From contig JASGMV010000022.1 of NCBI GenBank assembly GCA_030156255.1, positions 1 to 56,971 on the forward strand: a stretch of DNA of 56,971 bases. Reading direction: 5' to 3'. This DNA comes from Desulfovibrionales bacterium (GTDB lineage: Bacteria > Desulfobacterota > Desulfovibrionia > Desulfovibrionales > Desulfovibrionaceae). Position 1 is the stretch's first letter, and the number at the start of each line of letters is the position of its first letter. The translations under genes were made by a program, and so were the position numbers. Under the pieces are notes generated by a model, which did not search any database, was not told the DNA's origin, and saw only the letters and a list, made by a program, of their open reading frames with translations. This document shows positions 4,790 to 8,934 of the stretch, piece by piece.

Positions 4790-5569
4790 ATGTCCTTTTT
4801 GCATCCTCAGGAATTGTTGACGAGAGCCTATGCGGCCGGCTACGCCCTGCCTTCCCGGTTGGTCCGGTCCATGGCCGACGCGGCGTCTTTTTTTGACGCT
4901 GCGGAGGCGAGCCGGTCTCCGGCCGTGGTGCGGCTGGACATGGCCGACGGCGGGGCCTCCCTGGCGCCCGAGGCGGCTCGCCGGGCTCTGGAGGGCTCCG
5001 TCCCCGTTATGCTTCAGGGCGACTGCGGGGATTCCCTGGAGCTTGTCCGCCTGGCCGCGCAGTCGGGGTGCGCGGCCGTCGGCCTGGACGGCTCCGGCTT
5101 TGCTTTGGAGAAAAATCTGGCTTTCACCCGGGAGGCTGTGCGCCTCGCCCGGTCGTTGGGGCTTTGGGCCCAGGGCGCTCTGGCCTTGGACGAGCAGGAA
5201 AATGGCGATGCTGCGCCTACGGAGGCGGCCGAGTTCGCAATTTCTTCGGGTTGCAACGGGCTCAAAATTTTGCAACAAGGCGCTGCGGAGCCGTCGTTTC
5301 AGGTTTTGGCGCGTCTTAGCAGCGCTTTGCAGGTCTATCCCCTGACCATCCGGCCGGCGTTGAAGTCGCTGGTCGAGGCGGGAGCGGAGCCCCTGGTCGA
5401 TTTCGGTCCACCCCTGGACTCCCGGTTGACCCAGATTTGCCGGCTCGGAGTTTGCGTGGTGGAGGCCGACGAACTGCCTCCCCAGGAAGAGGCTTACCGA
5501 TCGTTGCTCGCCGGGGTCATGGCCAGGGCGCTCAAAAGCGCAGGCCAGGCGGATCAACAGGTCTTCTAA
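4790..5569 (+). CDS. Degenerate class II fructose-bisphosphate aldolase homologue, probably non-catalytic
   Basis: 259 residues that follow the class II (FbaA/KbaY) aldolase TIM barrel from the N-terminal 'ELLTRAYAAGYALPSRLV' through 'SVPVMLQGDCGDSLELVR' and 'AAVGLDGSGFALEKNLAFTR'. In active enzymes these read HLDHG and DASHHP or DGSHHP. Here the zinc histidine is cysteine (GDCG), the HH pair is GF, and the two later zinc-binding histidines (around SVHG and LHGGTG) are absent. The catalytic aspartate of DHG is kept. It is also shorter than the usual 285-310 residues. The ATG at 4790 follows GGGG at five bases. It lies 49 bases upstream of gap, where related genomes carry fba. I infer a pseudoenzyme; a repurposed lyase is possible. 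Confidence 0.75.
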   Translation: MSFLHPQELLTRAYAAGYALPSRLVRSMADAASFFDAAEASRSPAVVRLDMADGGASLAPEAARRALEGSVPVMLQGDCGDSLELVRLAAQSGCAAVGLDGSGFALEKNLAFTREAVRLARSLGLWAQGALALDEQENGDAAPTEAAEFAISSGCNGLKILQQGAAEPSFQVLARLSSALQVYPLTIRPALKSLVEAGAEPLVDFGPPLDSRLTQICRLGVCVVEADELPPQEEAYRSLLAGVMARALKSAGQADQQVF

Positions 5570-5618
5570 ATTTTATCAGCGCGTGATCGCCTAACATTCA
5601 AGCATGGAGGCGCCAATC

Positions 5619-6605
5619 ATGGCAGTGAATCTCGGCATTAATGGTTTTGGCCGCATCGGCCGCTACCTTACCAGGCTTTTGTCTGAAGTGGACGATCTCA
5701 ATCTTGTCGCGGTCAACGCGCGGGCGAGCAACGAAGATTTGGCCCACCTCCTCAAATACGACTCCTGCCATGGGACGCTCAAGGCCAACGTACAGTCGAA
5801 CGAACAGGGGCTGGAGATCAACGGCCGTCAGGTGCTGGTGACGCGCGATCCCGCGGGCGAGTGGCGCTGGGGCGAGTTGGGGTGCGACATCGTGGTGGAG
5901 ACCACGGGGAAGTTCACGGATCGCGTCAACTGCGACATGCATTTGGCCTGCGGCGCCAAGAAGGTCGTGGTCAGCGCTCCAGCCAAAGACGAGGATATCA
6001 CCATCGTCATGAGCGTCAACGACCATGAACTCAAGCCGGAGCACAAGGTCATCTCCAACGCCTCCTGCACCACCAACTGCCTGGCGCCTCCGGCCAAAGT
6101 CATCAACGATTGTTTCGGCCTCAAACACGGCATTATGACCACCATCCACTCCTACACCATGAGCCAGCGCGTTCTGGACGGCTCCCACAAGGACATTCGC
6201 CGCGCCCGCGCCTGCGCCATGAGCATGATTCCCACCACCACGGGCGCGGCCAGGGCCGTGACCAAGGTCATTCCCGAACTGGAGGGCAAGCTGGACGGCA
6301 TGGCCGTACGGGTGCCCACGCCCAACGTCTCCCTGGTGGACCTGACCTGCGAATTGGAGAAGCCCGCGACCGCGGAGGAAGTGAACGCCGCGCTGAAGGC
6401 CGCGGCCAACGACTCCATGGGCTATACGGAAATACCGCTCGTCTCCGTGGACTACATGGGCTCCACCTACGGTGGCGTGGTGGACGGTCCGCTGACCCGC
6501 ATTATGGATGGAACCATGCTCAAACTCATCATCTGGTACGACAACGAAGCCGGGTTTTGCAATCAACTGCTACGTCTTATTAACAAGACCGCCACGATGC
6601 TTTAG
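5619..6605 (+). CDS. gap: Glyceraldehyde-3-phosphate dehydrogenase, phosphorylating
   Basis: 328 residues. The NAD-binding N terminus is 'LGINGFGRIGRYLTRLL'. The active site is 'SNASCTTNCLAP' with the catalytic cysteine at residue 150, and the catalytic histidine lies in 'IHSYT'. The C terminus 'WYDNEAGFCNQL' is typical. It catalyses the glycolytic and gluconeogenic oxidation of glyceraldehyde 3-phosphate to 1,3-bisphosphoglycerate. I chose the ATG at 5619 because GGAGG lies eight bases upstream; the ATG at 5604 would add MEAPI. It follows the aldolase-like gene by 49 bases and is closed by a strong hairpin terminator. Confidence 0.97.
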   Translation: MAVNLGINGFGRIGRYLTRLLSEVDDLNLVAVNARASNEDLAHLLKYDSCHGTLKANVQSNEQGLEINGRQVLVTRDPAGEWRWGELGCDIVVETTGKFTDRVNCDMHLACGAKKVVVSAPAKDEDITIVMSVNDHELKPEHKVISNASCTTNCLAPPAKVINDCFGLKHGIMTTIHSYTMSQRVLDGSHKDIRRARACAMSMIPTTTGAARAVTKVIPELEGKLDGMAVRVPTPNVSLVDLTCELEKPATAEEVNAALKAAANDSMGYTEIPLVSVDYMGSTYGGVVDGPLTRIMDGTMLKLIIWYDNEAGFCNQLLRLINKTATML

Positions 6606-6638
6606 GCGGAGCTGCGTATTCTCAAGGCGCAACATCAA

Positions 6639-6672
6639 ACGCCTCGCGGAGGAATCTGCGAGGCGTTTTTTT
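6639..6672 (+). terminator. Rho-independent terminator after gap
   Basis: A nine-base stem ACGCCTCGC / GCGAGGCGT (6639-6647 and 6658-6666) encloses a ten-base loop and runs straight into seven T residues. It lies between gap and the start of the GH57 gene, whose ribosome site (AGGAGGAGG) begins just after the T run. Confidence 0.88.
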
Positions 6673-6687: not shown

Positions 6688-8934
6688 ATGTCTCGTTGCT
6701 TGTGCATCCATGGCCATTTCTACCAACCGCCCCGAGAAGATCCCTGGCTGGATGAAATATTGCCCGAGGGATCCGCCGCGCCTTTTTTGCACTGGAACGA
6801 ACGCATTGTTCGCGAGAGCTACAGCCCGCTGTCCTGCGCCAGAAGGATGGACGGGCAGGGGCGCATCACGGAGCTTGTCAATTGCTACGAATGGATGAGC
6901 TTCAATGTCGGCCCGACGCTGCTCGGCTGGCTCAAACGCAAGGTCCCCGAGACCTACGAGCGCATCCGGCAGGCCGACAAGGCCAGTGAAGAGCGCTTCG
7001 GGCGCGGCGGCGCCGTCGCCCAGATCATGCACCACGTGATCATGCCGCTGGCTTCCTTGCGGGACAAGCGCGCCGAAACGGCCTGGGCCGTGAGTGATTT
7101 TCAGGCGCATTTCGGTCGCGATCCCGAGGGGATGTGGCTCTCGGAGGCCGCCGTGGACACCGAAACCCTGGAGGTCCTGGCCGAGGCGAACATCCGCTTC
7201 ACCATCCTGGCTCCGCGGCAGGCCCGCGCCATTACCGATCCCGGCTCCGAGCAGTACAGGGACGTGGCCGAACACGAGGTGGACATCCGCGAGCCCTATC
7301 AGGTGGATTTGCCGTCCGGGCGCAGCATCGCCGTATTTTTCTACAACGGGCCCGTCTCCCAGGCCGTGGCCTTCGAGAATTTGCTGGCCGACGGGGGAAA
7401 TTTCTGGCGGCGCATTGTGGACAGCTCTTCCGAAGGGCTGCTGTCCCTGGCCACGGACGGCGAGACCTACGGACACCACTTCCATTTCGGCGACATGGCG
7501 TTGGCCTACGTTCTGGACCAGGCGAGCCGGGGCGCCGACGGGATCGAATTGACCAACTTTGCGGCCTATCTGGCCAAGAATCCTCCGCGCCGCAAGGCCC
7601 GGCTGTGGGAGCCGTCCTCCTGGAGCTGCGTGCACGGCGTGGAGCGCTGGCGGTCGGACTGCGGTTGCTCGACCGGCGGACATCCGGATTGGAATCAGCA
7701 GTGGCGGGCTCCTCTGCGCAAGTCCCTCGACATCCTCAAGGCGGCCGTCGACCGCCGTTTCGACGAGGCCGGCGCCGCCATCTTCAAGGACCCGGATCGG
7801 GCGTTCATTGACTTCGGCCAGGTGGTCAGCGGGCGGGTGGAGGAGAAGGCCTTCGCCACATCCCATTTTCGGCCCAAGCTTTCCGGCGAGTCCGTGGGGC
7901 TCGGCTTCACCTTGTTGTCCATGCAGAAATGGGCGTTGGCCATGTACGCCAGTTGCGCCTGGTTCTTCGACGATCTGGCGCGCATCGAGCCGGTAAACGG
8001 CCTGACCTACGCCCTGCGCGCCCTGGACCTGCTGCGCAAGAGCGGCGGGCAGGACGTGGAGGAGCAGATGCGGCGGGTCTTGTCCGAGGCCTGCTCCAAC
8101 GACCCGGCGTGGGGACGGGGCGATGAAATTTGGGACAAGGAGGTCGTTCCCCGGCGGGAGACCTCGGCAAGCCTGGTCGGCCAGGCGGTGATCCGGCTGC
8201 TGTTGCAGGATCGTTTGCCGGAGGACGGGCGCGAAGCCGAGGCGCGGTGGAGCGGCGTGTCCGTGCGCGTATCTCTCACTGAGGGAAGCCGTTCGGAGGG
8301 TCTTGCGGGCGACGCATCGATCCAATGGCGCCATGAAACCATGGTCGAATCCGTCCACTGGTCCTTGGAGGGGTTTGACCCCCGCAATCCTTTGGACTGC
8401 GTGGTCCGCGTGTCGCAGCCGGGCGCCGCGCCCGAGGAGTTTCGGCCGTCTTCCCTGCCTTGGAAAAAGCAGCAAGCCCTGGCCGTGGAGTTGGCCGAGT
8501 CCGTGGATGAAGACGCCTGGAGCTCCGGGGTGCGGCGAAACCTGGGCGCCAATGCCCTGTATTTGCCGTTCCAGGAAGCGCAGGTGGAGCAAACCCGGTC
8601 CGGAAGCTGGCGCGTGCTGGCGCCGTGGATGGTCTGGGAGTGGATTGAACGCGGAGACGCCGGAGCGCCCGCTGCGGAGGAGCTTCGGTCGTTTTTGCAG
8701 ACGTGGGTCAAGGAGCATGAGGCTTCGTCGCTGGGGCGCCGGCTGGGCGACCGGCTGGCTGGCATGTTGTCGGAGGCGTCGCCGGACTTCGGGCGGATCG
8801 AATCGATGGTTCGGCGGGCCGAGGAGCTTGGATTGCGCCTGGACATGTGGCCGGTGCAGAATGCGTGGGGGCCGTGGCGGAATTCGGGGGCTGAGGCGGT
8901 CCGTTTGGGACGGGCGTTGGGATTCGCCGTGTGA
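6688..8934 (+). CDS. Glycoside hydrolase family 57 / DUF3536 protein
   Basis: 748 residues. The N terminus 'LCIHGHFYQPPREDPWL' and the segment 'LATDGETYGHHFHFGDMAL' (near residue 258) are typical of GH57-type barrels fused to the C-terminal DUF3536 region. The family includes alpha-amylase-like and 4-alpha-glucanotransferase-like enzymes acting on alpha-glucans, but DUF3536 members are largely uncharacterised. No signal peptide is visible, so it is probably cytoplasmic. The ATG at 6688 follows AGGAGGAGG at five bases. It lies behind the gap terminator, so it likely has its own promoter or depends on read-through. A role in storage-glucan turnover beside glycolysis is inference. Confidence 0.85.
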   Translation: MSRCLCIHGHFYQPPREDPWLDEILPEGSAAPFLHWNERIVRESYSPLSCARRMDGQGRITELVNCYEWMSFNVGPTLLGWLKRKVPETYERIRQADKASEERFGRGGAVAQIMHHVIMPLASLRDKRAETAWAVSDFQAHFGRDPEGMWLSEAAVDTETLEVLAEANIRFTILAPRQARAITDPGSEQYRDVAEHEVDIREPYQVDLPSGRSIAVFFYNGPVSQAVAFENLLADGGNFWRRIVDSSSEGLLSLATDGETYGHHFHFGDMALAYVLDQASRGADGIELTNFAAYLAKNPPRRKARLWEPSSWSCVHGVERWRSDCGCSTGGHPDWNQQWRAPLRKSLDILKAAVDRRFDEAGAAIFKDPDRAFIDFGQVVSGRVEEKAFATSHFRPKLSGESVGLGFTLLSMQKWALAMYASCAWFFDDLARIEPVNGLTYALRALDLLRKSGGQDVEEQMRRVLSEACSNDPAWGRGDEIWDKEVVPRRETSASLVGQAVIRLLLQDRLPEDGREAEARWSGVSVRVSLTEGSRSEGLAGDASIQWRHETMVESVHWSLEGFDPRNPLDCVVRVSQPGAAPEEFRPSSLPWKKQQALAVELAESVDEDAWSSGVRRNLGANALYLPFQEAQVEQTRSGSWRVLAPWMVWEWIERGDAGAPAAEELRSFLQTWVKEHEASSLGRRLGDRLAGMLSEASPDFGRIESMVRRAEELGLRLDMWPVQNAWGPWRNSGAEAVRLGRALGFAV

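Follow-up and report, generated by a model that had tools for sequence, protein, structure and literature searches.

A pseudoenzyme candidate of the class II aldolase family in the place of fba before gap in a Desulfovibrionales bacterium

In the 56,971-nucleotide stretch of a Desulfovibrionales genome analysed here (the window), the open reading frame P0001 lies before gap, where many relatives carry fba, the gene of a class II fructose-bisphosphate aldolase (FBA). Judged from its sequence, the active site of P0001 is dead, and we hold with high confidence that the gene is a dead descendant of fba in its original place in the surE-fba-gap cluster. P0001 is a well-defined candidate for a pseudoenzyme. 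The explanation that we favour as a whole, with moderate confidence, is that this descendant of fba lost aldolase catalysis in place and was kept as a binding protein. The features are collected in Table 1.

Table 1. Features of the surE-P0001-gap region (positions in the window) and the P0001 segments that stand in place of the aldolase motifs
Feature	Position	Strand	Basis and remarks
P0001, homologue of class II aldolases, catalytically dead by sequence, 259 aa	4790..5569	+	open frame; PF01116; gene-type codon use; modelled aldolase barrel
surE, upstream neighbour of P0001	3915..4676	+	PF01975 194.9 bits; same neighbour as intact fba in many relatives
gap, type I glyceraldehyde-3-phosphate dehydrogenase	5604..6605	+	TIGR01534 397.5 bits, cut-off 367.2
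QGDCG, residues 76-80, replaces HLDHG	5015..5029	+	D78 kept, zinc histidine changed to C79; alignment
DGSG, residues 100-103, replaces DGSH	5087..5098	+	D100 kept; H in 29 of 42 relatives
QGALA, residues 128-132, replaces EAELG	5171..5185	+	both glutamates lost; alignment
TIRPA, residues 186-190; R188, P189 and A190 replace HGA	5345..5359	+	third zinc histidine lost
VVEADE, residues 223-228, replaces the KINIDT stretch	5456..5473	+	first D is D227, N lost

The active site was read from an alignment of P0001 with 42 intact relatives drawn from 80 loci of named genomes, among which Mailhella and Desulfovibrio gave the best matches. The zinc ligands, which we take from FBA structures to be the second histidine of HLDHG and the histidines of GTSHG and HGASS, are all gone in P0001. 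Each letter of HLDHG is present in 42/42 relatives, and only D78, the catalytic aspartate of DHG, and the last glycine are left of it (Q76-G77-D78-C79-G80). The GTSHG histidine (42/42) has no aligned counterpart and the HGASS histidine (42/42) is R188. The earlier note on this DNA had described the QGDCG reading with its retained proton-relay aspartate as well as the loss of the later metal histidines, and the alignment bears out both. The same note had listed the change of SHHP to SGFA among the lost metal ligands. The change itself is real and corresponds to the DGSG segment, but we do not count its histidine, found in only 29 of the 42 relatives, as a zinc ligand.

The losses extend beyond the metal site. 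The two base glutamates of EAELG, each present in 42/42 relatives, are Q128 and A130. In the phosphate-binding motif of the INIDTD type, the asparagine is replaced by E225, the first aspartate is D227 and the second is missing, as is the segment that follows the KINIDT stretch in intact FBAs. P0001 contains a single histidine, H5, so a histidine zinc site cannot be rebuilt from other residues, and this possibility was ruled out. The cysteines that are left stand at positions 79, 94, 155, 217 and 222. Together, these losses take away the zinc ligands, both base glutamates, the GTSHG loop and the greater part of the phosphate-binding motif, and the active site of P0001 is dead by sequence.

The frame of P0001 runs from ATG to TAA over 259 codons with no internal stop. 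The class II FBA profile PF01116 matched it with 61.5 bits (cut-off 25.5), the best stretch covering residues 7-129 only, and the scores of TIGR01859 (41.8 bits, cut-off 343.05) and TIGR00167 (38.7 bits, cut-off 215.6) stayed below their cut-offs. Since P0001 passes the PF01116 cut-off and falls far under that of TIGR01859, it is a superfamily member by descent that belongs to none of the functional groups of NCBIfam. Apart from PF01116 and PF07345, the latter below its cut-off, no Pfam family was found for P0001 at E <= 1.

Several results show that the frame was maintained, as had been claimed before. The codon log-odds per codon were 0.202 for P0001 and 0.25 for surE, and did not exceed 0.033 in any of the five remaining frames of P0001. 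When the neutral decay of the gene was simulated with substitutions only and carried to about 31% identity, 0 of 400 outcomes were free of stops. The divergence of P0001 is about that from 600 random changes, yet it has no stop, which argues for long-lasting selection on the reading frame. A frame-broken pseudogene or a chance ORF was rejected by the codon use and by these simulations. An artefact in a wider sense, be it misassembly, frameshift or chance ORF, might be suspected in a draft genome of 106 contigs, but the full-length frame, the gene-type codon use, the length of the contig (57 kb), the expected neighbours and the similar ORFs in three other assemblies make it extremely improbable.

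An RNA element under the ORF was likewise rejected, as no Rfam match at the gathering threshold was obtained between 3800 and 6800. No promoter of the sigma-70 type was found on the + strand between 4550 and 6750, and P0001 may still have a promoter of its own. The ribosome site (gtggggtagacATG) had been called good, a view that we do not share: by eye it is only moderate, and that of gap, with ggagg before the ATG at 5619, is better.

The fold of P0001 was predicted with AlphaFold2. Without an alignment the model had a pLDDT of 42.4, and with a 43-row alignment the pLDDT was 88.0 and the pTM 0.87; this alignment, of intact enzymes, may bias the model in favour of their fold. Eight strands alternate with helices in this model, as in a (beta/alpha)8 barrel. 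The best 50 rows of Foldseek and of VIA-align were all class II aldolases, a result that is driven by the alignment, and the best matches among solved structures were YdjI (6ofu, Z 28.1) and the Thermus FBA (1rv8, Z 27.9). A different TIM-barrel family was thus rejected by the Pfam profile, Foldseek and VIA-align, and the identification as a class II aldolase homologue is confirmed by the PF01116 score and the modelled barrel. Compared with the class II FBA of the surE-fba-gap cluster (PF01116; TIGR01859/TIGR00167 type), P0001 shares the gene position, the N-terminal half by profile, the predicted barrel and D78, whereas the zinc ligands, the base glutamates, GTSHG and a C-terminal segment are absent.

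The gene order in the window is surE-P0001-gap, and in many relatives it is surE-fba-gap. We surveyed 78 intact-type fba loci with flanks of about 1.5 kb (66 distinct sequences; some flanks end early), which included other families of the order. The LDHG motif was present in 78/78; gap was downstream in 54, surE was upstream in 43, and both were found in 34 of the 78 loci. The earlier observation that P0001 sits where relatives carry fba before gap holds in this survey, and the shared gene order makes P0001 a positional orthologue of fba. The likelier start of gap is the ATG at 5619 rather than position 5604, and counted to it the spacer behind P0001 is 49 bases long. Spacers of 52 bases or less separate fba and gap in 46 of the 63 intact-fba loci measured with a motif script. 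Directly after gap, the window encodes a glycoside hydrolase family 57 protein with DUF3536 (6688-8934). By eye, a hairpin with a T run was seen between the two genes at about 6637-6672, which is absent from the list of the terminator scan.

Similar dead ORFs were found directly before gap in three further genomes (G010, G233 and G014; two genera) among the 348 of the order. When P0001 and these three ORFs were combined into a profile, the four source genomes scored more than 330 bits and the next best of the 348 reached 118.6 bits. The three ORFs encode 242-245 amino acids and are 25-30% identical to P0001. The ATG of gap follows their stop codon after 1 base in G010 (L124), 18 bases in G233 (L125) and 24 bases in G014 (L112). 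They resemble P0001 in their place before gap and in the loss of the catalytic motifs, and differ from it in sequence and in their lineage on the gap tree. In place of HLDHG they read HCLGNNGG (G014), LQGLDD (G010) and LEGLAD (G233), so that neither D78 nor C79 is kept.

Other searches returned no further case. All 80 named loci, which had been picked by conserved aldolase patterns, contained DHG, and a scan of the genome contigs with P0001 as query found no relative. A phylum-wide profile search of 345 drawn genomes recovered only the window's own genome at E <= 1e-33; G010, G014 and G233 score far better than this and hence were not among the genomes drawn. In literature searches on class II FBA, pseudoenzymes and the surE/gap operons of Desulfovibrio that covered few subscription journals, no paper on the P0001 gene was among those listed.

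These ORFs also bear on the earlier proposal of a metal-free lyase with new chemistry. An enzyme of this or another new activity in the old barrel would have to work via D78 and perhaps C79. In favour of it, P0001 retains the predicted barrel together with D78 and D100, and C79 stands at the place of the zinc histidine. Against it, the protein lacks the base glutamates, GTSHG and the HGASS histidine as well as most phosphate-binding segments, and the failure of the other dead ORFs to keep D78 and C79 means that no new conserved site is visible. We found no positive evidence for such an activity and consider it highly unlikely.

In 40 different genomes surE is the immediate upstream neighbour of gap and an aldolase-like gene between the two is lacking, so the gene is dispensable there. 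This count comes from 69 gap loci (the 70 loci L063-L132 less L130, which has no gap), which include the window's own locus and some second gap copies. A second gap homologue also occurs in the window's genome (G000:C58:13309-14304); it is 49% identical to the gap of the window and contains one in-frame TAG.

The enzymatic role of fba can be covered elsewhere in the genome of the window. A search for a second, intact fba had been recommended in the earlier note, and it was positive for two aldolases that exceed curated cut-offs, a class IIB FBA on contig C69 (TIGR01521, 577.6 bits, cut-off 496.35) and a class I FbaB on contig C62 (NF006707, 657.7 bits, cut-off 327). By eye, the class IIB frame lies together with transketolase-like and phosphoglycerate-kinase-like frames, with an integrase-like frame near (G000:C69:19000-26000, L130). 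Among the matches listed, the same class IIB type, 73-77% identical, was present in 11 other genomes of the 288 of the family, which together with the integrase-like frame suggests a mobile carbon-metabolism cluster.

Another aldolase type is present in G010, G233 and G014 and absent from the window's genome, where the class IIB FBA and FbaB are found instead. This PF01116 protein of about 430 amino acids occurs in 63 of the 288 genomes of the family. Its copy in G233 (L178:1363-2655) scored 84 bits with PF01116, over the cut-off, and no NCBIfam model was over its own cut-off. The copies that were read keep HADH, the paired glutamates, TTHG and QHGTSG, and since the catalytic motifs are kept, the protein appears to be a functional class II aldolase.

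The 430-residue type and an intact short fba were found together in 0 of 205 genomes scored as carrying the intact type; the scoring used the match to P0001 alone, and the motif was read in a subset of the loci. The 205 genomes remained from 217 of the 288 that match P0001 at E <= 1e-3 after 12 had been removed: G000, G014 and G233 as dead ORFs; G022, G236, G249, G258 and G259, taken as matches to the class IIB paralogue; G189 and G201 as incomplete genomes, with an intact-type fba lying at the end of a contig in G189; and G285 and G293 as weaker matches. If either or both of the last two are kept, the overlap is 1 or 2 instead of 0. Twenty genomes of the family belong to neither group. The two types are nearly or fully exclusive, and in these genera the 430-residue protein is a strong FBA candidate that appears to have displaced the old fba.

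On the gap tree, a single-gene tree, the window stands apart from the group of G014, G010 and G233, so the dead state needs at least two origins. The tree of the aldolase-like proteins, from which the intact rows L007, L023, L044, L101 and L232 were left out, unites the four dead ORFs (87/83) and places P0001 with G010/G233 (97/93). Its branch lengths reach 10, which makes long-branch attraction likely and the union of the four dead ORFs unreliable. We trust the gap tree over the protein tree, and two or more independent decays of fba have probably taken place.

The dead genes of G010 and G233 are the only pair that allows a test for selection. Their dN was 0.31 and their dS 0.75, giving a dN/dS of 0.41, and the gap genes of the same pair had 0.22. 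None of 600 neutral simulations (300 for each of two transition ratios) reached a pN/pS as low as this pair. The mean pS in the simulations was 0.41-0.43, the observed value being 0.474, and 3/300 in each set were free of stops. In five blocks of 40 codons, the constraint was strongest in codons 1-40 and weakest, close to neutral, in codons 121-160. The simulations and the dN/dS argue that the dead protein is under protein-level purifying selection in the genus of G010/G233. P0001 itself has no near relative, the other dead ORFs being 25-30% identical to it, and the constraint in G010/G233, which are of another genus and another lineage on the gap tree, need not apply to it.

The results can also be read as a vanishing remnant, a displaced gene on its way out whose frame stays open under weak residual selection or as a translated spacer aiding the expression of gap. 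This agrees with the stages seen in the relatives, which range from intact fba through dead ORFs to surE directly before gap, with the short distances to gap in the three other dead ORFs, and with a constraint in G010/G233 (g11) that is moderate and almost absent in codons 121-160. Against it, the stop-free frame of P0001 at its high divergence speaks for long selection on the reading frame, tight spacing is not special given the short spacers behind intact fba, and the 49 bases in the window are not a tight coupling. We therefore grant this reading a limited probability. If P0001 is taken as a dead descendant of fba, a binding or regulatory role at the protein level appears the more plausible fate; a remnant or operon spacer is possible at a lower probability, and anything else would be quite surprising.

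In the favoured explanation, the enzymatic role of fba would have been displaced by other aldolases. The old gene would then have lost its catalytic residues, with its frame, its gene-type codon use and the predicted barrel persisting, and P0001 would be maintained as a protein that is still translated and folded but has no catalysis, its role being binding rather than chemistry. It may bind a sugar phosphate, an active aldolase or the glyceraldehyde-3-phosphate dehydrogenase (GAPDH) encoded by the next gene. The gene position makes GAPDH a possible partner, which P0001 might regulate or scaffold. Rather doubtful is the extended form of this idea, in which a pseudo-aldolase was recruited in parallel at least twice to regulate or scaffold the GAPDH of the next gene, the operon position having chosen the partner and the barrel serving as the binding module. 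Non-catalytic partners of aldolases are known from GatZ and KbaZ, subunits of tagatose-bisphosphate aldolase that belong to another Pfam family, presumably PF08013. The Pfam scan of P0001 listed no match to this family at E <= 1, and the likeness is confined to the idea of such a partner.

Taken alone, P0001 is of moderate interest, which is raised somewhat by the parallel cases and the pattern of the displaced enzyme. The replacement of central glycolytic enzymes rarely leaves a legible record, and here working, dead-but-open and absent fba are found side by side. Should the dead forms be functional, they would add new pseudoenzymes to a core pathway and offer a natural case in which to test whether a dead enzyme is recruited as a partner through its place in an operon. 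Without a function, they would give a measure of how long the frame of a central gene stays open after its displacement.
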